From the NCBI RefSeq assembly GCF_000337175.1, contig NZ_AOIJ01000058.1, positions 1,745 to 65,744 on the forward strand: a DNA stretch of 64,000 bases, given 5' to 3'. How positions within the stretch are numbered: position 1 is the stretch's first letter; each line of letters starts with the position of its first letter. Positions 14,522-33,162 of the stretch are shown here, in pieces. Made by a program: the position numbers and the translations under genes. The DNA comes from Natrinema gari JCM 14663. GTDB lineage: Archaea; Halobacteriota; Halobacteria; Halobacteriales; Natrialbaceae. Under the pieces are notes generated by a model that ran no database searches, had not been told where the DNA came from, and saw only the letters and a list, made by a program, of their open reading frames with translations.

Positions 14522-14595
14522 GCCGCCTTAGCTCAGACTGGGAGAGCACTCGACTGAAGATCGAGCTGTCCCCGGTTCAAATCCGGGAGGCGGCA
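14522..14595 (+). tRNA. tRNA-Phe (anticodon GAA), integration site
   Basis: A 74-base tRNA with acceptor stem GCCGCCT/AGGCGGC, anticodon stem CTCGA/TCGAG and loop CTGAAGA (anticodon GAA), T-loop GGTTCAAATCC and discriminator A. Its 3' half, from the anticodon-stem end, is repeated exactly at 33129-33162. The integrated element therefore left an intact tRNA at the left junction. Confidence 0.96.
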
Positions 14596-16974: not shown

Positions 16975-17024
16975 GAACCATACTATTCGTGATATGTAAC
17001 GACAAGTGGCGCGAGTTTTCGACA

Positions 17025-17294
17025 ATGAGAAAATCGGCGGATTGGATGAGTATCGCGGACGAACGGATTCTTGAGGCGCTTCAGGAGAAAGAATCAGGCA
17101 CGCCGACAAGTCTGTCACAAGACGAATACGTCCGATTCAGCCGTACGCATCTACACCAGAGGATGAAAAAATTAGAACGCCATGGATTGATTCGTTTTCT
17201 CGGGAATGGGGTGTACGTCCTTACCAACGAAGGCCAACTGTACCTTGATGGTGAACTCGACGCGGCGGAACTCGAACCGGACGACGAAGACTGA
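17025..17294 (+). CDS. PhiH1-repressor-like winged-helix regulator
   Basis: An 89-residue protein with the haloarchaeal virus-repressor pattern: SADWMSIADERILEAL (about residues 4-19), then HLHQRMKKLERHGLIRFLGNGVYVLTNEG as recognition helix and wing, and an acidic tail. Such proteins regulate element or viral genes. The start is the ATG at 17025; a GTG at 16989 would add 12 residues. It probably binds the palindrome at 16956-16974 and controls itself and the divergent lipoprotein gene. Confidence 0.8.
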   Translation: MRKSADWMSIADERILEALQEKESGTPTSLSQDEYVRFSRTHLHQRMKKLERHGLIRFLGNGVYVLTNEGQLYLDGELDAAELEPDDED

Positions 17295-17307: not shown

Positions 17308-17517
17308 CTAAAACGGAACGAGAAGGTTTCTATCGCGCCCTTCGATGATGGCAGCACCACCAGCGGGTCGAGAGAGTCGCATGAGTGTGTCGTGAACGCG
17401 TTCGTCGCGGAGCGAATGGCATTGAAGGTCGTTTCTGACGGTCGCTCTGCGGCGCTGTACGGCCATTTGAGTGGCTTCTAATTCCCACTGCGCATTGTAT
17501 ATAGAATTATGATTCAC
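17308..17517 (-). CDS. Possible small gene, 69 aa
   Basis: An open frame converging on the HTH gene. The translation has amphipathic helical character (WELEATQMAVQRRRATVRNDLQC) but is not acidic. A/T-rich sequence suitable for a promoter precedes it. It could equally be a chance frame in a 350-base gap that also holds the structured leader. Confidence 0.3.
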   Translation of the reverse strand: MNHNSIYNAQWELEATQMAVQRRRATVRNDLQCHSLRDERVHDTLMRLSRPAGGAAIIEGRDRNLLVPF

Positions 17518-17534
17518 TACAATTATAATGCCAC

Positions 17535-17635
17535 GGCACCTACTATATTGTACGGAGCCACTGTCTCTTCGGGGTAATCTCGCTATGAGAAAGCCCGGCG
17601 CTTGGGACGCCGGACAGTGGCTCTCTGAAGGTGCC
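17535..17635 (+). ncRNA. Structured leader RNA candidate upstream of the SWIM gene
   Basis: A nested set of inverted repeats folds this 101-base interval into a closed multibranch structure. P1 is GGCACCT/AGGTGCC (17535-17541 with 17629-17635). P2 is an 11-bp perfect helix, GAGCCACTGTC/GACAGTGGCTC (17555-17565 with 17613-17623). Inside P2 are two hairpins, TCTC-GCTAT-GAGA and CCGGCG-CTTGGGA-CGCCGG. A TATA-like TATATA lies near 17498. The structure ends eight bases before the ATG of the SWIM zinc-finger gene, so it would form in that gene's 5' leader. I do not recognise a known family. Confidence 0.55.
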
Positions 17636-17643
17636 AGAAAGCC

Positions 17644-18063
17644 ATGAGTACATCCACGCTCGACTTACTTGAGTACGACGACCAGATAGCCAAGAGGGCG
17701 CAGTGGGAAGCCTTCGAGTTCACCGCCCTCGGTGACGGCGACGTAGAAGTAGTGAACGACTCTCACGAAGAAGCCGACGACCACACCTACACGGTTCACG
17801 TCGAGGGCGGTATCCCGTCGGACTGTACGTGTCCGGCATGGGAGTACCAGCCCGGCGCGTGCAAGCACATGGTCGCCGTCGCCATTCGAGAGCCAGTCCT
17901 CGAAGCGGCCAGCCGGGAGCAGCCTGTCCGCGCTGACGGTGGTACTGCCACCCTCGACTCGTTCACTACCGAGGACACCGACGAAGGCAAGTGCTGGTGC
18001 GACGACTCGGACTTCCCGTGTTTCGGATGCTACAACGATGGTCGGCGCGACCTTCCGGGTTGA
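17644..18063 (+). CDS. SWIM zinc-finger protein
   Basis: A 139-residue protein with a SWIM-type zinc site, DCTCPAWEYQPGACKHMVAVAI (CxC...CxH, about residues 59-80). It is preceded by the usual beta-strand lead-in (HTYTVHVEGGIPSD). A second Cys-rich segment near the C-terminus (KCWCDDSDFPCFGCYNDG) may bind another metal. SWIM proteins are thought to bind DNA or proteins; small ones are frequent on haloarchaeal plasmids and elements. It is followed within six bases by another zinc-finger gene and then by a TATA-binding protein paralogue. Confidence 0.85.
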   Translation: MSTSTLDLLEYDDQIAKRAQWEAFEFTALGDGDVEVVNDSHEEADDHTYTVHVEGGIPSDCTCPAWEYQPGACKHMVAVAIREPVLEAASREQPVRADGGTATLDSFTTEDTDEGKCWCDDSDFPCFGCYNDGRRDLPG

Positions 18064-18069
18064 GGGCGA

Positions 18070-18345
18070 ATGACCCGACCGTCGCCTGCGGCGGCTCTCA
18101 ACGGCGTCGAGACAGGCCACATTTGCGACCAGTGCAACCGGGGAATCCGGACAGGCGACAAAGCCGTCGTCTACGCCACCTACTACGACGCCGATGGGTG
18201 GGTCGTCCGGCGCGTGTGGTGCGACGACTGTGGAAGTACGACCATCGGCTTACCGACCGATGGTGCCGACGAAGTCGTGGTCGAGGCCGTGTACTGGCAG
18301 GGACGACTCGTCGGTGTGACCACGGTAGACCGGAGTCGGCCTTGA
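18070..18345 (+). CDS. Small zinc-ribbon protein
   Basis: A 91-residue protein with two CxxC pairs, CDQCNRGIRTGDKAV and VWCDDCGS (about residues 19-55), framing a short beta-rich domain (VYATYYDADGWVVRR). This gives a zinc-ribbon-like fold. The C-terminal part is an acidic strand-rich tail. It starts six bases after the SWIM gene ends and is presumably co-transcribed. The role is unknown; a small regulator or nucleic-acid-binding adaptor is plausible. Confidence 0.7.
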   Translation: MTRPSPAAALNGVETGHICDQCNRGIRTGDKAVVYATYYDADGWVVRRVWCDDCGSTTIGLPTDGADEVVVEAVYWQGRLVGVTTVDRSRP

Positions 18346-18391
18346 CCAAGACCAACCGGACTTATACCCAACAGCCACCTTTCTCGGAATA

Positions 18392-18940
18392 GTGGTAGAG
18401 CCAACGGTCGTCAACGTCGTCGGGACAATCACCTATCAGCAAGAGATAGCGTTAGACGCGTTGGCGGACACATTCTCTCGCCGTGGTGAAATCACTGACG
18501 TAACCTACGAACCTGCCGAAAATCACTGGCTACAGACTCGGTTCGCGCCCGATGATACCTACGTCGCATTCTACCGAAGCGGTCGCTGTTCAATAGTAGG
18601 CGGTAATTCAGTCGAACACTTTCATGAGATAGCAGACCGGGTTAATACCCTCATGCGGGACATTCTACAGTTCGAGTACGAGCCGACCGTAGAAATCAGC
18701 AATATCGTCGCTACGGCGGATATTGGGTCATCAATCCCGTTGGAAGTCCTAACACTCGAACTTGGGATGGAACACACCGAATACGAACCCGAACAGTTCC
18801 CGGCGCTCATGTACCGAGAAGAGGATTATGTCATGTTGGTCTTTGCCAGCGGGAAACTGCTTTGCACCGGACTGACCGATGTGGTAGATGTGACCGACGC
18901 GATTGAACAGATGGAATCCCGACTACGGGCAGTCGTATAG
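18392..18940 (+). CDS. Divergent TATA-binding protein paralogue
   Basis: A 182-residue protein whose second half is an unmistakable TBP repeat: EISNIVATADIG (about residues 101-112), EYEPEQFPALMYRE (130-143) and VFASGKLLCTG (150-160), with both DNA-contacting Phe positions kept. The first half is a degenerate repeat (VVNVVGTI, YRSGRCSIVGG), so the two-repeat saddle is retained in length. TBP recruits TFB and RNA polymerase to promoters. Element-borne TBPs are known in haloarchaea, but this one is unusually divergent in repeat 1. The start is GTG at 18392, with TATA-like TTATACC about 30 bases upstream. Confidence 0.88.
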   Translation: MVEPTVVNVVGTITYQQEIALDALADTFSRRGEITDVTYEPAENHWLQTRFAPDDTYVAFYRSGRCSIVGGNSVEHFHEIADRVNTLMRDILQFEYEPTVEISNIVATADIGSSIPLEVLTLELGMEHTEYEPEQFPALMYREEDYVMLVFASGKLLCTGLTDVVDVTDAIEQMESRLRAVV

Positions 18941-19663
18941 TTACACGTCTTCTTCGCTAAACACCAACTTCGCGCTGTTCTGTTCTAACCACTCGGCCTT
19001 CTCCTTGTAGTCAGGGACGTGTTCTCCGACGAACTGCCAGAACTCTCGTCCGTGGTGCTGTTCGGTCAGGTGAGCGAGTTCGTGGACGACGAGGTAACCA
19101 ATAACGTCGGGCGGGGCCATAATGAGCCGCCAGTTCAGGCTAATCGTTCCACCAGTCGAACAACTACCCCACCGTGTGCGCTGGTTTCGGAGTTCAAGTT
19201 TTTCGTACTCGACACCCATGCGCTCGGCGTAGTGGTCGGTACGGTCGGTGAGATAGTCCCGCGCCCGGCTTCGGTAGAAATTTTCGAGAACTTGCTTGAC
19301 CGACGATTGCTCGACAGCACTCTTTCGGAGCCGAATCGAATCCTCGTCTACCTCGTGCTTTCGGCAGGATTCTATGACGAGTTCTCGGTCTTGTCCGAGG
19401 AACGGGAAGCACGCACCCGCCTCGAAAGTCCGGTCGGGGACTTGCTCGCGGTAGGAGTCGTACTTCCGTCGCTGGTCTACTACCCACGCCGCGTTCTCTT
19501 TCAGCAACCTCAATGGACGAACATCCTCGGACTCGGGAACCACGACCGTCACGCCGTGTATATCCACGTCGATACGTGGCTCATTGGCGTCGGCACTGTG
19601 GCGTACCTCGTACTCGATGGGGTTCCCCAACAGGTCGATTTCACGCGGTTGCGCTTTAGCCAT
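18941..19663 (-). CDS. YgjP/DUF45 metallopeptidase-like protein linked to type I RM
   Basis: A 240-residue protein of the YgjP-like (DUF45, M48-related) family. It has the zinc motif HELAHLTEQHHGREFW (Glu catalytic, third His downstream) and the RWGSCSTGGTISLNWRLI segment before it. Such genes recur at the ends of type I restriction operons in bacteria and archaea, with no established role; protein turnover of the system is one idea. The start ATG overlaps the last eight bases of hsdR (ATGGCTAA), implying coupled translation. An upstream ATG at 19672 is also in frame. Confidence 0.88.
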   Translation of the reverse strand: MAKAQPREIDLLGNPIEYEVRHSADANEPRIDVDIHGVTVVVPESEDVRPLRLLKENAAWVVDQRRKYDSYREQVPDRTFEAGACFPFLGQDRELVIESCRKHEVDEDSIRLRKSAVEQSSVKQVLENFYRSRARDYLTDRTDHYAERMGVEYEKLELRNQRTRWGSCSTGGTISLNWRLIMAPPDVIGYLVVHELAHLTEQHHGREFWQFVGEHVPDYKEKAEWLEQNSAKLVFSEEDV

Positions 19664-22631
19664 TGTTCGCAATGAGGTAGTTCCGAATCGCGTCTACGAA
19701 ATCGTCGTCGTCCTGAATCAAGTGTCCAAGGTCGTACTGCTTGACCAGCACATCCAGCAGGATTCGTTCGATTTCAGCGATGGTCTGCTGGTTCGTCTTC
19801 CACCCGTGGTAGCCACGGTCCACGCGGTCGCGGAATTGCGAGACGATTTCCCCGGCCACTTCTTCGGCCTGTTTTTCGGACTCGATAGTCTCGGTCGTTT
19901 CTTCGGTCAGGTGGGTGTAGATAGCGAACTCGGCGGCTTCCATCCCCTTCTCGTCGGCCTCGGCTTCCACGTCAAGAATCTCTTCCTCGACGGCCTTGAG
20001 GGCTTCAACGGCCTCGGGGTCGCCTATCTCGTCACCCTGCCAGCGTTCCACTATGTCCGTCACACGCTCGCTCAAGCGCTTGTAGCGCGGGTTCTGGTTC
20101 TCTCGAGGATGTAGGTGTTCGCGGGTCGCGTGGGCAATCTGTGAGGCCTTGACGCCGGGGTTATCCAGTCCTTCCACGTCTTCGAGGTATTCCTCACCGA
20201 GCTTGTACGTCGGGAAGTCCCGCTTGATTTCCCCGATTTCGACGTTCTCGCTGATTATCTCGCGGGTCTTCTCTTGCATGTCCTCTTCGGGGTCGTCGTC
20301 GCCGGACGTGGTTCGCTTGAACGCGACATGAACCCGACTCAACCACTTGTAATCATCTTCGATACCGCTCTCTATGAGCCGTTTGTCAGGCGCAACGGAC
20401 TCGTAGAGCGACTGTAGCCGTCGGAAGCCCTGTTTGAATTGGCGGCGTTCGGGATGGGTGCTGACGCGTTCTACGGCCTCATAAGCGGCTTCTTGGCTGT
20501 CGTTCTTCGGTATCCCCTCGAAGATTTCCATGACCGTTGCCAACTGGTCCTTCAGGTCCTCGAAGAGTTCGCTCTTGTCGCGGGCGGCGTAAGCCTTTGT
20601 CTCGTCGTCGTAGTCCAGCGCCTCGTCGATGTTCTCGAACACGCCTTGGAAGTCCACTATTTCGCCGTTCTCCTTACCCTCGGCAGGCCGGTTCGTCCGG
20701 GCGATTGCCTGCATGAGCGTGTGGTTCTTGAGATTCCGGTCGAGGTAGATGGTCTTCAGAATCGGGGCGTCGAAACCCGTCAACAGCATATTGTGGACGA
20801 CCAGCAGTTTCGGGTCCTCGTCTTCCTTGAACGACTTGATGATACTGTCGCGCTCGTCAGGGTCGGTATGGAACTGCTTAATCAGGTCTGGGTCGTCATT
20901 GGTGGTCGTGTAGAGAACTTCCACTTCGTCCTCGCCGCGACGGTCTATGAGTCGCTCGCCGTACATAGCGGCTGACCGGCGGCTCGGCGTGACGACCATC
21001 CCCTTCCAGCCGTTCGGGGAAACGTGGTCGTCGTAATGCTGGTCGATTTCCTCGACGGCCTTGTCTACGCGAGGTTCGATTTCTGCGAGCGTGGTCGTGT
21101 TGACCGCCTCGCGGATGAACTCGCGCTTCTCGTCTTTGGTGAGGCCTCGAAACTCGTGGTCGAACTCTTCGTCCAGCCCGGCCTCATCAATCTTCCATTC
21201 CATCTCGTGCCGGAGCGTGAAGTAGACGGGCAGAATCAGACCGTCCTCGATACCTTCCTTGACCGTGTACTGGTGTAGGTACCGTTCGCCAGTTCGGTAG
21301 TCTTCACCGTCGGGCGAGAACTCGCGGAAGGTGTTTCGAGCCTTCTGTGTCTCGCCTTCCCTGACGGGTGTGCCGGTGAAGCCGAAGTGGTAGCAGTCCG
21401 GAAGCGCGTTGTCGAGGCGACTACCAAGGTCGGCTTCCATGAACCGGTGAGCCTCGTCGCTCATGACGATTACCTCGTCGTTGCCCTGCGCGTCTGGCTC
21501 TACGTCCTGAAACTTCTGAATGGTCGTAAGGACGAGTTCGCTCTGGCCTTCTTCTATGAGTTCTTCGAGGTGGTCGATACCCGTGGCTTCGGTCCACCGT
21601 TCGAGGGAGAGGTTCGCCAATTGGTCCCGCATTTGGGAGTTCAGTTTGTCTGTGTCTACGATAATGAAGACCTGCGGGTTGTCGGCCATGTCGCGGGACA
21701 GCAGGTTCTCGGCGGCGTAGAGCATGGTGAAGGACTTGCCCGACCCTTGGGTGTGCCAAATGAGGCCAGTCTTGTCCTCGCCCTCGTCCACGCGGTCGAG
21801 AATTGCGTTCACGGCGTAGTACTGCATGTACCGAGGGACGATTTTCGTGTCACCGCCCGCTCGGCGCTCGAAGAAGACGAAGTTCTTCAGCAGGTCGAGA
21901 AGGGAGCCGGGATTGCACAGCGCCTTCACCGCCTGCCGTATTTCGTTGTCGTCGGCGTACTCGTCGGGGGCGTCGTTCCACGGTTCGTAGAACTCGCGTG
22001 GTACGCCGACCGCGCCGTAGCGTAGTTCCATCGTGTCGGCGGCGACGTTGAACAGGCTGGGGATGAACAGCCGGGGAACGTCGTCTTCGTAGGCCAGCAG
22101 GTCGCTCACGGCGTCGTGCCAGTCGTTATCCTGCGCTCGGCTCTTCAGTTCCATCGTCACGAGCGGAATCCCGTTGACGAAGAGATTCACGTCCGGGCGA
22201 ATTGTCGTCTCGCGCGATACCGAGAACTGATTCACGGCGTGGAAGGTGTTGTTCTCGGGATTCTCGTAGTCTATCAGGTCTACGTAGACGGTCTTCGTCA
22301 CCCCGTCCGGGCGTTGGACGGAGAATGTCTTGCCCTTCGTCAGCAGTTGGTAGAACGCTCGGTTGCCGTCTATCAGGTTCTCGCTGTCGAGGTCACGCTT
22401 CAGCGACGAAATGAATTTCTCAACGTTTTCCTTGGTCACCTCCTTGTTGAGCGCTATGACCTGTTCGGCCAGCAAGTCCCAATAGACGATTTCGTGGCTC
22501 TGCCGGTCATACGTGGCGTCGAGGGCGCTCGCACCACGGTCGCCGTCTTGCCCGTAGGTGTCCCATCCGACGGTGTTGAGCCACGATAGAAGCGAGTGTT
22601 CAACGCCCTCTTCGGATGGGTGGTTAGCCAT
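19656..22631 (-). CDS. hsdR: Type I restriction enzyme, endonuclease/translocase subunit HsdR
   Basis: A 991-residue protein of normal HsdR length. The N-terminal PD-(D/E)XK nuclease is seen as RPDVNLFVNGIPLVTMELKSR (about residues 158-178, with Asp and Glu-x-Lys). A superfamily 2 translocase follows: Walker A HTQGSGKS (about 290) and motif II MSDEAHRF, with motif III-like FGFTGTPV downstream. Motif VI appears as QAIARTNRPAEGKENG. A helical C-terminal part contacts HsdM/HsdS. It should translocate DNA and cut distant unmethylated sites. It overlaps hsdS and the peptidase gene by eight bases each, both times with the sequence ATGGCTAA. Confidence 0.96.
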   Translation of the reverse strand: MANHPSEEGVEHSLLSWLNTVGWDTYGQDGDRGASALDATYDRQSHEIVYWDLLAEQVIALNKEVTKENVEKFISSLKRDLDSENLIDGNRAFYQLLTKGKTFSVQRPDGVTKTVYVDLIDYENPENNTFHAVNQFSVSRETTIRPDVNLFVNGIPLVTMELKSRAQDNDWHDAVSDLLAYEDDVPRLFIPSLFNVAADTMELRYGAVGVPREFYEPWNDAPDEYADDNEIRQAVKALCNPGSLLDLLKNFVFFERRAGGDTKIVPRYMQYYAVNAILDRVDEGEDKTGLIWHTQGSGKSFTMLYAAENLLSRDMADNPQVFIIVDTDKLNSQMRDQLANLSLERWTEATGIDHLEELIEEGQSELVLTTIQKFQDVEPDAQGNDEVIVMSDEAHRFMEADLGSRLDNALPDCYHFGFTGTPVREGETQKARNTFREFSPDGEDYRTGERYLHQYTVKEGIEDGLILPVYFTLRHEMEWKIDEAGLDEEFDHEFRGLTKDEKREFIREAVNTTTLAEIEPRVDKAVEEIDQHYDDHVSPNGWKGMVVTPSRRSAAMYGERLIDRRGEDEVEVLYTTTNDDPDLIKQFHTDPDERDSIIKSFKEDEDPKLLVVHNMLLTGFDAPILKTIYLDRNLKNHTLMQAIARTNRPAEGKENGEIVDFQGVFENIDEALDYDDETKAYAARDKSELFEDLKDQLATVMEIFEGIPKNDSQEAAYEAVERVSTHPERRQFKQGFRRLQSLYESVAPDKRLIESGIEDDYKWLSRVHVAFKRTTSGDDDPEEDMQEKTREIISENVEIGEIKRDFPTYKLGEEYLEDVEGLDNPGVKASQIAHATREHLHPRENQNPRYKRLSERVTDIVERWQGDEIGDPEAVEALKAVEEEILDVEAEADEKGMEAAEFAIYTHLTEETTETIESEKQAEEVAGEIVSQFRDRVDRGYHGWKTNQQTIAEIERILLDVLVKQYDLGHLIQDDDDFVDAIRNYLIANNG

Positions 22632-23991
22632 GCTGTGCGATTTCCTCCGGTACCTCTATGTTCGTATCGGTCGTTCGGACTGTTCCCGACAGCAGGTCTT
22701 GCATAAGGCCCTGCTTGAAGCGTTGAAGACGTTGTAGGTAGTCGCGCTCGTTTCGAAGTGCCTCGGAGTGCTGGTCAATTATCTCGACAATTTGGGCTTG
22801 TTCTTCTTCCGAAGGGAGGTGAACGGGTACTTCTCGAAGGTCTTCCAGATTAATTCCCTGAACAGCCTGTCCGATAGTGTTCCTCTCGAAGTAGTTATTC
22901 GGTGTTTCCGTCTCGAAAAAGTACCGAATGAAACGAGGATTGGCCTCTGTGACTCGGATACGGGCAGTGTCCTGCGTAATATTTCCTCCGTCCAATCGTT
23001 CTGGAACGAAGGCCATTCTACCGACCGTTCCCCGGATAGTGAATAACAAGTCACCCTCCCTCAACTCGGCACGCTTGAAGTCCTCGTGTATCTCTTGGGA
23101 CGTGTGGAGGATGTCGCCCTGCTTTACTTCTCCATCGTGAATGTCTTTCACCTTCACAACAGGGACACCATCTGGCTGATGGTCGCCGGGCTTCAAAATT
23201 CCGTAGACGATAGGGGCGTCTTCAGGGACGAGTTGGCTCAAGGGAACAATATTCCAACTCTCGGGAATTTCTCCGTACTTTGTCTCACGGTACGATTCAG
23301 AGCTGCCGTCGGAATTACGTAGTTCTCCGTCTTCATCTAACCCGTATCGGAATAGGTCTTGCATTAGTCCTTTCCTCACCCGAGTCGCCTGTTCTGTGAT
23401 TTCCTCGGTCGTCTGAATCGCTTGGTCTACGTTTTGGAGTACGGTAGCGATTTTTCGCTGTTCAAATTTCGGAGGTACAGGTAGTGGATACTGTTCAAGC
23501 ACATTTGTCTGAATACTTTCAACGGTTGTTCCAGTCTTCTTGCAACTTCCTCGTATATCTTCAGAAAGTCCCGATATTGATTGAAAAAAATACTCTGCGT
23601 TGACCTGCTCCCTGTCCGGGTCAAGGGCCTTCAAATCCTGATTGATGGTTGTTTGATTATCGACTATTGCAACGGGTAAGGTATGCCGTAGAACACCACT
23701 CCGAACGACCATGAGAGTCGTGCCGGGAGGGTATATTTTGGACGTTGACGCCTCTGCCCCCTTCTTCGTCATCTTGTCTTCAGTGTCATTTAGTCGTGGG
23801 GAGTCGAAGTCTTTCGGCGATGTCCACAGGATTTCTCCCCCCTCCCAGTATTCGTCGTTGCTCTTTTTTGGAGTGCTTCCACCCCCAATCTCGCATAAGT
23901 CAATGAGACTTTTTTCAGCCCATTCCGCCGTCTCCTTGTTTCCCTGTTCTCTTGAGTCTGCGAAATCATCTAACTTTGCTTCTTCACTCAT
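22624..23991 (-). CDS. hsdS: Type I restriction enzyme specificity subunit HsdS
   Basis: A 455-residue specificity subunit with two target-recognition domains. The first opens with LIDLCEIGGGSTPKKSNDEYWEGGEILWTSPKD-type sequence and ends in the conserved LPVPPKFEQRKIATVLQNVDQ spacer helix. The second begins GEIPESWNIVPLSQL and ends EEQAQIVEIIDQHSEALRNE. Each recognises half of a bipartite site; the sequence cannot be predicted here. It overlaps hsdM by eight bases (ATGAGTGA) and hsdR by eight (ATGGCTAA). TRDs vary rapidly, so this gene sets the specificity carried by the element. Confidence 0.95.
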   Translation of the reverse strand: MSEEAKLDDFADSREQGNKETAEWAEKSLIDLCEIGGGSTPKKSNDEYWEGGEILWTSPKDFDSPRLNDTEDKMTKKGAEASTSKIYPPGTTLMVVRSGVLRHTLPVAIVDNQTTINQDLKALDPDREQVNAEYFFQSISGLSEDIRGSCKKTGTTVESIQTNVLEQYPLPVPPKFEQRKIATVLQNVDQAIQTTEEITEQATRVRKGLMQDLFRYGLDEDGELRNSDGSSESYRETKYGEIPESWNIVPLSQLVPEDAPIVYGILKPGDHQPDGVPVVKVKDIHDGEVKQGDILHTSQEIHEDFKRAELREGDLLFTIRGTVGRMAFVPERLDGGNITQDTARIRVTEANPRFIRYFFETETPNNYFERNTIGQAVQGINLEDLREVPVHLPSEEEQAQIVEIIDQHSEALRNERDYLQRLQRFKQGLMQDLLSGTVRTTDTNIEVPEEIAQHG

Positions 23992-25495
23992 AATTCAGCG
24001 CCTCCATGTGGCTATCCATCCGCGCTTCAATTTCGTCGCGCTCGGCCTGCAACTCGCGTAGTTTCCCGAGTTCTTCCTGAACGTCAATCTCTTCCTCCGG
24101 CTCGGTCGTATCGACGTAGAGCGCGATGTTCAGGTTGTAATCGTTTTCCCGAATCTCGCCCAGTTTGACTGTTCGGCTGACTCTCTCTTCGGTCGTCCAG
24201 TTGCGGAAGTTCTCGACAATGTGGTCAAGACCTTCCTCCGTCAGTTCGTTTTGGTTTGACAGTTCGCGGTAGAAGTCTTCGTCTGCGGCGTGAACGAATT
24301 GAACCTCGTTCTTCCGCTCGGCTGGCTTGTCGGTGTTCAGCACGAGGATGGCCGACGGAATCGAGTTGTTCTGAAAGAGATTCTCGGGAAGCCCAACGAT
24401 TGCTTCCACAAGGTCGTCTTCGAGCATTGGCTCGCGGAATTTGCTCTCGTGCTTGCGGAACAGCACGCCGTGGGGTATGACGATTGCGGCCTTCCCACCC
24501 GAGTCGTCGCCTCGCTCGCGGTCTTTCAGTTGCTCGGCCATGTGCATGATGAAGGCGTAGTCACCCCGGTCGGCACGAGGTAGTTTGCCATTGTCTGCCC
24601 AATCGAAGCGACCATACGGGTCGTCCTGAAGGTCGCTCTTGGCCCAGTCTGCCGAGAACGGGAAGTTAGCCAGCACCCGGTCGAAGCGCGTGAGTTCATT
24701 GTCGCCCTCGTTGGTGAACGCCGGACTCGACAGCGAGTCTTCGCGCTCGATAGTGCCATTCAGGCCGTGAATCGAGAGGTTCATCTTCGCAATCGCGGCA
24801 ATGTCGGGATTGATTTCCTGCCCGGTGAAGGTCAGTTTCGAGGGGTCGCCACCCTGTTCCTCACGGTAGTACCGGGCAGCCTCAATGAGCATACCACCGG
24901 AGCCGACGGTCGGGTCGTGGAAGGTGTGGCCGTCCTCGAACTCGTCCACGAGACGAACGCAGAGGTTGACGATGTGGGGCGGGGGGAAGAACTGGCCACC
25001 GGATTTGCCTTCCTCTTCCGCAAAGTGGCGAACCAAGTCCATGTAGGCCTCTCCGAGCATGTCCGGCGGGATACTGTCTCGGTCGAGGTCGTACTTTGAG
25101 AGGTGTTCGACCAGTTTCCCGAGCCGGTCATCGTCCAGTGCGTCGGCGTCGATGTAGTCAGCCCGGAAGAGGCCCTGAAGTTCCGGGTTCTCTTCGGTGA
25201 GCGCGTCGAAGGCTTCGTTCAGTTCCTTGTCCACGTTGTCCGAGACGGAACGAAGGTCGTCCCACAGGTACCCCTCGGGTACGACCGGAATGTCGTACAG
25301 GTTCTCCCGGCGGGCGAAGTCCTCTCCGTACTCTTCGAGGTTCTGCTGGTACTGTTTTTCGAACTCGTCGCTTATAGATTTATAGTATACTAAAGGAAGA
25401 ATAAATTCTTTATAATCTGTTGGGTCTACAGCGTCACGAATAATGTCGGCACACTTGAAAAGATGTGAGTCCAGTTCTTCCAATGAGAGGGTCAT
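23984..25495 (-). CDS. hsdM: Type I restriction enzyme methylase subunit HsdM
   Basis: A 503-residue N6-adenine methyltransferase subunit. The N-terminal HsdM helical domain runs to about residue 140. SAM-binding motif I is FHDPTVGSGGMLIEAA (about 189-204). The catalytic motif IV reads NFPF rather than the commoner NPPF, a variant also seen in other type I HsdM proteins. The ending RDEIEARMDSHMEAL is the coiled-coil tail that meets HsdS. I prefer the ATG complementing 25493-25495; a GTG nine bases upstream is possible. A TATA-like AAATAACA about 25-33 bases further upstream probably drives the whole four-gene operon. Confidence 0.95.
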   Translation of the reverse strand: MTLSLEELDSHLFKCADIIRDAVDPTDYKEFILPLVYYKSISDEFEKQYQQNLEEYGEDFARRENLYDIPVVPEGYLWDDLRSVSDNVDKELNEAFDALTEENPELQGLFRADYIDADALDDDRLGKLVEHLSKYDLDRDSIPPDMLGEAYMDLVRHFAEEEGKSGGQFFPPPHIVNLCVRLVDEFEDGHTFHDPTVGSGGMLIEAARYYREEQGGDPSKLTFTGQEINPDIAAIAKMNLSIHGLNGTIEREDSLSSPAFTNEGDNELTRFDRVLANFPFSADWAKSDLQDDPYGRFDWADNGKLPRADRGDYAFIMHMAEQLKDRERGDDSGGKAAIVIPHGVLFRKHESKFREPMLEDDLVEAIVGLPENLFQNNSIPSAILVLNTDKPAERKNEVQFVHAADEDFYRELSNQNELTEEGLDHIVENFRNWTTEERVSRTVKLGEIRENDYNLNIALYVDTTEPEEEIDVQEELGKLRELQAERDEIEARMDSHMEALNYE

Positions 25496-25611
25496 ACGCG
25501 TCACATTTCATGCGAGCGTGTTATTTGCTCCGGTAAAGTTCGGAGACGACGAGCGCAAGGTTGTCGTAACAGACTCGCGTGTGTTCCGACTCGACTGGTG
25601 AGGCGCTCTAT

Positions 25612-32034: not shown

Positions 32035-33054
32035 TCACACTCCTTCGAGGTAGCCACGACGTTGCTCTACCTTCTGTTCCTCACTCCGCTTGTCGTAGTG
32101 CTTGTCAAGTACGTCGGGTCCTACGTTCATGCGGTCGCTCACCACCTTTTCGGGCACATCCTTCGAGAGATGTTCAGTGATACTGCCACGCCGAATGTCG
32201 TGCGGTGAGACGTTGACCGGACACTTGCTGTAGCCGTTATAGTGCGTCCCCTCACAGGATTCCGGGTCGCGGTTCCGGGGACAGTCCGCACCGTAGTAGC
32301 AGGGCCGAGTAACCTTGTAGACGGTTTCCCGGACATTGCCCCGCGAGAGGCGACCGTACCGGCTCGTGACGAGCGGCTCCCGACCGTAGTCGTCCCGCGT
32401 GTCTGGTCGGTTGTGTTCTATGTAGCCGTCTATTGCACTACAGACGGTCCCGCTCAATGCGACGATTCGCTCGCCTTCTTTTCCGTTCTTGAGCGCGGTG
32501 CCGGTTTCAGGCCGGTGACGGATTTCGAGGGTTTCGCGCTCCGAATCGTAGTCTCCGAGGTCGAGCGAGTGGAACGCTCCGAGACGAATACCCGTATGCC
32601 ACAGGATTTCGAGAATAACGTGGCCTCGGGTGGCGTACTCGTACTGTCGGAGATATTCTAACACAGCCTCGGCTTGCTCGGCTGGCAGAATGCTCTCGGC
32701 CTGTTCGTCCTCCTTCGAGAGCGTGGGCATGATGATTTTCTCGTGTAGCCCCTGCAGTACGGCGTCGATAGACTCACACCAGCGGATGAAGACGCGAAGT
32801 GCGTCGAGGTTCCCTTCCAAGGTGACAGGCTTCAGGTCGCCGTCGTCACGACGCCACGTTCGGAACTCTTGGAGTTTCCGTCCGGTGAGGTCGTTCATGT
32901 TGTCTATGTCGGCTACCTCGTTACACCACCGAATGAAGTGCTTCAGCCGGTAGTGGTAGCCGTCGAGGGTCGATTGAGATACCTCGCGCTTGCGAGCATT
33001 GAGGTACATTTCCTTTGCGCGTTCCGGTGAGATGGGTTGGAGTTCCTGACTCAT
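32035..33054 (-). CDS. Tyrosine recombinase/integrase of the element
   Basis: A 339-residue integrase. The N-terminal SAM-like core-binding domain runs from about residue 10 to 105 (KREVSQSTLDGYHYRLKHF). In the catalytic domain I see the first Arg in WHTGIRLGAFHSLDL (about 159), the HxxR box in SPHDIRRGSIT, and the nucleophile Tyr in LDKHYDKRS near the C-terminus. The gene ends in an acidic RGYLEGV tail. The start is the ATG complementing 33052-33054. The frame stays open upstream through attR itself to an ATG at 33162, giving a spurious tRNA-derived peptide. It would catalyse tRNA-Phe integration and excision. Confidence 0.94.
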   Translation of the reverse strand: MSQELQPISPERAKEMYLNARKREVSQSTLDGYHYRLKHFIRWCNEVADIDNMNDLTGRKLQEFRTWRRDDGDLKPVTLEGNLDALRVFIRWCESIDAVLQGLHEKIIMPTLSKEDEQAESILPAEQAEAVLEYLRQYEYATRGHVILEILWHTGIRLGAFHSLDLGDYDSERETLEIRHRPETGTALKNGKEGERIVALSGTVCSAIDGYIEHNRPDTRDDYGREPLVTSRYGRLSRGNVRETVYKVTRPCYYGADCPRNRDPESCEGTHYNGYSKCPVNVSPHDIRRGSITEHLSKDVPEKVVSDRMNVGPDVLDKHYDKRSEEQKVEQRRGYLEGV

Positions 33055-33128
33055 TTCGACCACCGAAACGCCCCACCTGCGAGGGTGTGAGCCGACCCCG
33101 CTCAAGGCGGTGAAACCGCCGTACGGGA

Positions 33129-33162
33129 GAGCTGTCCCCGGTTCAAATCCGGGAGGCGGCAT
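33129..33162 (+). repeat. attR: second copy of the 34-bp tRNA-Phe 3' end
   Basis: Exact match to 14563-14596. Only the 3' part of the tRNA is present (no anticodon arm), so this is not a functional tRNA gene. It lies 75 bases from the integrase start codon. Confidence 0.93.

Follow-up and report, generated by a model that had tools for sequence, protein, structure and literature searches.

The SWIM zinc-finger gene that starts at 17644 of the window (the whole 64,000-nucleotide stretch of Natrinema gari DNA analyzed here) stands behind a segment that can fold into a multibranched structure, and it is followed by genes for a zinc-ribbon-like protein and a divergent TATA-binding protein (TBP). 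What does the structure do, and which of these genes belong with it? The sequence-only reading of this DNA had joined all of them into one cassette, in which the TBP would drive a private transcription programme from behind a structured leader.

Structure of the Leader

The 101-nt fold at 17535–17635 is present and lies beyond chance (minimum free energy −48.3 kcal/mol, z −4.32, 0/200 shuffles), and its 3′ end is 8 nt upstream of the SWIM ATG, just as had been described. The outer 7-bp stem drawn in the earlier fold, GGCACCT/AGGTGCC (17535–17541 with 17629–17635), did not survive comparison: it is not conserved in the close relatives L036–L038, in which its downstream arm is missing. This stem is probably outside the transcript, 5′ of the predicted start site, because it is located between that site and the TATA box. 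The parts of the leader are as follows.

17523–17529, + strand: TATA box TTATAAT of the leader promoter; predicted start site ~17548–17553
17554–17566, + strand: P1 5′ strand, GGAGCCACTGTCT; the R1 and R2 covariance models match at 17554–17647
17572–17596, + strand: P2 hairpin of the three-way junction, GGGT (17572–17575) with GCCC (17593–17596), from RNAfold and the covariance model
17597–17611, + strand: P3 hairpin, GGCG, loop CTTGGGA, CGCC
17612–17624, + strand: P1 3′ strand, GGACAGTGGCTCT, which doubles as the source of the P4 5′ arm
17619–17643, + strand: P4, the alternative hairpin, GGCTCTCTG (17619–17627) with CAGAAAGCC (17635–17643), abutting the start codon

A divergent ORF at 17308–17517 was considered as the owner of the structure and rejected, as no conserved gene is found at that place. 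When the sequence upstream of 81 leaders is aligned, an A/T-rich TATA position is conserved at −32 to −28 from the start of the P1 model. With the usual archaeal spacing, a TATA box ~28–32 nt 5′ of P1 would place the start site within a few nucleotides of P1.

The core of the family is a three-way junction of P1 (~13 bp, variable in sequence), P2 (GGGC.../...GCCC, with a conserved GAAA ahead of the 3′ strand, a GAAA-type 3′ loop side also being noted for the window hairpin) and P3 (4–6 bp, with the loop consensus CU(U)GGAA). In an alignment of 100 sequences, which was fitted to the covariance model and so favors the structure of that model, 91.6% of the cells in 21 pairs are paired and both sides vary in 18 of the 21; covariation scores 0.546, as against 0.213 with shuffled partners and ≤0.09 with slid partners. 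Changes on both sides occur in all 13 pairs of P1 and in three of the four pairs of P3, where every cell is paired (100%). The top mutual-information pairs mostly belong to P1 and P3. A test that is less exposed to the fitting, permutation of the arms among 46 dissimilar copies, gives −22.9 kcal/mol for P1 with its own arms and −14.2 ± 0.6 with permuted arms (0/5000 permutations); for P4 the corresponding values are −10.7 and −7.3 ± 0.33 kcal/mol (0/5000).

P4 is built from the same material as the junction. Its 5′ arm is the P1 3′ strand and its 3′ arm stops 0–1 nt before the ATG, which coincides with the end of the model in 95 of 100 copies. P4, counted when its energy reaches at least 4 kcal/mol, lies directly against the ATG in 94% of copies, compared with 14% when the 3′ arm is shuffled. 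In the minimum-energy fold, a mean of 6.0 of the 7.5 bases of the P4 5′ arm are paired with the P1 5′ strand, and the two states therefore exclude each other; in the window, the exclusion is between P4 and the distal half of P1. The computed energy gap between the two states averages 4.7 kcal/mol (range 0–17.5; 7.3 in the window), as calculated for 1 M NaCl and 37 °C rather than for molar KCl. Shine–Dalgarno (SD)-like 4-mers occur in 72% of copies (43% ± 5 after shuffling), mostly 5–11 nt upstream of the AUG in the P4 loop region, where the window has AGGTG (17629–17633). The leader thus has the conserved structured domain in the 5′ leader that characterizes a riboswitch, and the shared, covarying P1/P4 strand supplies what would be an expression platform, a predicted exclusive pairing beside the ribosome site. 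Judged by sequence and computed folding, the architecture is riboswitch-like, with two mutually exclusive folds at the start codon.

Distribution of the Leader

A DNA search with 17515–17650 finds hits in 12 of 392 genomes of the order, the query genome among them. Loci L036–L038, from other genera, are 93–97% identical over ~105 nt and lie directly 5′ of a different SWIM subfamily, and near-identical copies occur in different families. The same fold, in very different sequences, is found upstream of other genes. The first covariance model (R1) matches 65 of the 392 genomes and 34 of 95 genera, and the second (R2) yields 100 distinct copies from the order genomes and further loci. In a phylum-wide search of 393 genomes with R2, 24 matched, all of them in the same order and none outside it. 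The genome of the window itself holds five copies at E <0.1, the two weakest of which are plausible by fold; in one of these (L209), P4 is located at the ATG. Three or four copies share a single contig in some cases, most of them each standing in front of a separate gene (L151, L152). At L039 (genome G109, ~1501), an insertion with a transposase-like ORF interrupts the leader at the P2 strand. Rfam 15 has no match for the window leader or 16 further loci, even at permissive E-values, and a search of the literature limited to open-licence papers returned no description of the leader.

Genes at and around the Leader

The genes on either side of the window leader are as follows.

16989–17294, + strand: small winged-helix protein, 101 aa, 5′ of the leader; cluster wHTH101, with weak Pfam HTH matches
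17644–18063, + strand: SWIM zinc-finger protein, 139 aa, C-terminal CxC...PCxxCY (PF04434, E 8e-9); first gene after the leader
17669–17680, + strand: conserved nucleotide box WWRA...CG (+26 to +37), inside the SWIM coding region
18070–18345, + strand: zinc-ribbon-like protein, 91 aa, probably second in the operon
18392–18940, + strand: TBP paralogue with a degenerate first repeat; own TATA box TTATA at 18362–18366

The assignments of the first reading hold for the SWIM gene and for its neighbor. The latter belongs to a conserved CxxC...CxxC family, a cluster of 11 loci with no Pfam model above the cut-off, and members of the family follow a SWIM gene or a Cys-rich relative at L171, L174, L177, L179, L185 and L188. 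That reading had named its own test, whether the leader is conserved ahead of other SWIM genes, and the result is strongly positive. SWIM genes are not its only partners, however: they follow roughly half of the copies, and the rest precede other small ORFs, namely zinc-ribbon genes, Cys-rich peptides and short orphans.

In at least 26 of 47 loci, the first gene encountered 5′ of the leader is a small winged-helix gene, usually divergent; the wHTH101 family itself is also found upstream of leaders in genomes G125, G217, G288 and G007. In intergenic DNA 5′ of leaders (L044, L045 and others), short CCTACNTAGG-like palindromes flank the TATA box and might serve the small winged-helix protein as operators. 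Genes commonly found nearby are those for integrases, type I restriction and replication. In the window, a YgjP-like metallopeptidase gene lies beside a complete type I restriction system (hsdR, hsdS, hsdM) at 18941–25504, and the same metallopeptidase and restriction neighbors are seen at leader loci in G035 and G217. An AT-richer island extends between tRNA-Phe and tRNA-Leu (14522–14595 and 32035–33161), with a tyrosine integrase adjoining tRNA-Leu.

The box inside the coding region follows nearly every leader (~95 leader-borne ORFs), whatever protein is encoded. Among these ORFs, 99% have A or T at position 27, 92% have A29 and 97% have CG at +36/+37; CG occurs at other codon boundaries in 0–37%, and at +36/+37 in only 1 of 22 SWIM genes without an adjoining leader. 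The box is retained even where the first ORF is very short or broken (L055, L126). Since codons 9, 10 and 13 encode unrelated amino acids, it is the nucleotides that are conserved. Pairing of the box with the leader was considered and rejected, as no leader column covaries with it. As a separate observation, the last 60 nt 5′ of leaderless SWIM genes of the KRAQYEAFEF type (L017–L034) carry a second recurrent element, a TATA-like TTTTAT followed by a GCCCC...GGGGTGCGGGGC-type hairpin.

Leaders in Viruses and Plasmids

Divergent versions of the leader are present in isolated viruses: BJ1 (5′ of gp07), Humcor1 and the DL viruses of Halorubrum lacusprofundi. These versions, identified by eye from fold, position and P4, have the junction and GCTGTC...GACAGC abutting the ATG; in whole-record searches the covariance model scores viral versions weakly (E ~0.05–0.5), and in BJ1 and Humcor1 it nominally matches other places. 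BJ1 and Humcor1 carry the full coding box. The operons of all three include a SWIM gene and face a small divergent gene, which in BJ1 is annotated as winged-helix. The annotated GTG start of BJ1 gp07 (L191, 3171) falls within the leader, and the conserved ATG lies downstream, after GACAGC (L191, 3222). BJ1 forms turbid plaques and has an integrase (PMC2194725); the BJ1 genome paper makes no mention of the leader.

A phage search with the second SWIM subfamily leads to BJ1 and its relatives, and one with the SWIM protein of the window gave no hits. Further IMG/VR contigs carry leader copies; some pattern hits in viral contigs L213–L215 were rejected as not being the leader. Among plasmids, inspection by eye shows a divergent version at the SWIM gene on Halalkalicoccus jeotgali plasmid 5, and no leader was found at the SWIM genes on the annotated plasmids of Haloferax lucentense and Halobaculum halophilum.

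Probable Translational Control and Its Alternatives

We consider it probable that the segment at ~17550–17643 belongs to a new family of structured haloarchaeal 5′ leaders, whose role is to control translation of the first operon gene in viruses and integrated elements. With the junction intact, the SD-like purines and the AUG would be mostly single-stranded and translation would start. With P1 opened or never formed, P4 would form at the AUG and translation would be blocked or reduced. This direction of control, in which the junction is on and P4 is off, is suggested by the accessibility of the AUG. Masking of SD and AUG is feasible in these cells, since synthetic riboswitches that act in this way work in Haloferax (PMC8241225). 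By energy, the junction is usually favored over P4 by several kcal/mol, and therefore either a trigger is required or P4 may be merely a protein-binding site. The trigger would most likely be an element or host protein, perhaps the SWIM or zinc-ribbon product as an autoregulator; a small ligand, or salt or temperature, is possible. The switch model leaves the box at +26 to +37 unaccounted for.

A plausible, though not a probable, alternative is an operator RNA that does no real switching, in which an element or host protein binds the junction, P4 or both and represses translation, an autoregulation comparable to that of ribosomal-protein leaders. The first genes of many copies encode small zinc-binding proteins, loop letters are conserved in P3 (CUUGGAA) and beside P2 (GAAA), and an element with several copies, each ahead of a separate gene, would have a regulon. 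The exact complementarity of the arm before the AUG to the shared P1 strand, however, exceeds what a binding hairpin needs.

We find it unlikely that the leader is a riboswitch for a small molecule or ion, or a salt or temperature sensor, that reports the state of the host to the virus or element. A compact three-way junction, conserved unpaired letters and an exclusive expression-platform hairpin at the AUG are what such a sensor would show, but the downstream genes are small zinc fingers and orphans, with no metabolic or transport genes seen, and no Rfam riboswitch is similar.

The private transcription programme, in which promoter selection by the divergent TBP is central, has little left to recommend it. 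The gene is indeed a TBP (PF00352, E 7e-33), and the degeneracy of its first repeat is confirmed (42.3 bits, against 73.1 in the second; 105 and 102 in the canonical TBP of the genome), with 26/92 and 39/90 identical residues in repeats 1 and 2, respectively. SWIM, zinc-ribbon and TBP genes run in the same direction within 1.4 kb, and two other genomes (G007, G172) have, close to leaders, a related TBP whose first repeat is altered. In this element-borne family (window 18392–18940; L185, 5617–6168; L190, 6172–6714), His or Tyr replaces the usual phenylalanines of repeat 1, and repeat 2 is normal. A TBP is present, however, at only 3 of 41 loci, it is on the opposite strand in the other two, and the window gene has its own TATA box, 26–30 nt before its GTG start, so that its transcript is probably leaderless. 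The TBP is thus a fellow passenger and not part of the leader unit, and because it is outside the conserved unit the programme is without support. The anatomy suggests control at the level of RNA or translation, beside a winged-helix regulator gene, rather than promoter selection by the TBP.

Least credible of all is a DNA-level element that merely looks structured (a recombination or replication site, a cruciform, an insertion-sequence end or a TnpB guide-RNA end): it would explain travel between elements, near-identical copies across families and multiple tandem copies, but paired positions of the leader copies hold 172 G-U and 32 A-C combinations, which argues for selection on plus-strand RNA and led us to reject a DNA cruciform or recombination site; the junction is fixed relative to a TATA box and an ATG; no transposase or tnpB was recognized among the gene clusters common to the loci; and an insertion-sequence end or transposon remnant, suggested by the 93–97% identical copies in other families, was dropped as a reading, since these copies, too, lead directly up to the ATG of SWIM genes.

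Translational control of the first gene accordingly remains our preferred reading. In a bolder form, which we offer only tentatively and regard as rather unlikely, the leader would be a natural ligand- or state-sensing class of RNA switch specific to haloarchaeal viruses and mobile elements, one that sets translation of early or accessory operons in a decision between dormancy and activity and whose recognition element extends into codons 9–13 of any gene that follows. A leader that is widespread, strongly covarying and switch-like, and that occurs in genetically tractable haloarchaea and their viruses, opens RNA-level control of archaeal virus and element operons to direct testing. The coding box, tied to the leader and independent of the encoded protein, is a separate puzzle.

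Relation to Known Systems

Several known systems resemble parts of this picture. In BJ1-type temperate haloarchaeal viruses (Graaviviridae), as here, the leader is 5′ of a SWIM-containing operon, and in those viruses a divergent winged-helix gene accompanies it; the island harboring the window copy is chromosomal, has a type I restriction system and is not a recognizable BJ1 provirus. The leader is not placed like the omega-RNA of an IS200/IS605 element, which marks an IS end or the 3′ terminus of tnpB: 95 of 100 leader copies end exactly at the ATG of another gene, and the closest gene on the 5′ side mostly encodes a small winged-helix protein. Archaeal ribosomal-protein leaders (S15 in Halobacteria, eL15; PMC7247131) are likewise structured cis-regulatory 5′ leaders in Halobacteria, but they precede ribosomal-protein genes, whereas the ORFs here are SWIM, zinc-ribbon, Cys-rich and orphan, and no Rfam match connects the two.

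A further likeness is to translational riboswitches such as the archaeal fluoride riboswitch, in which a strand of the closing stem of the junction is also shared with a hairpin at the start codon, giving two exclusive states. The leader differs from these in having no Rfam match and no metabolic genes downstream, and in its range, which within the genomes and viruses searched takes in only haloarchaea with their mobile elements and viruses. Since the leader would work like a translational switch, its kind is not new; the family, the carriers and the coding box are new as far as the searches of genomes, open-licence literature and Rfam 15 show.
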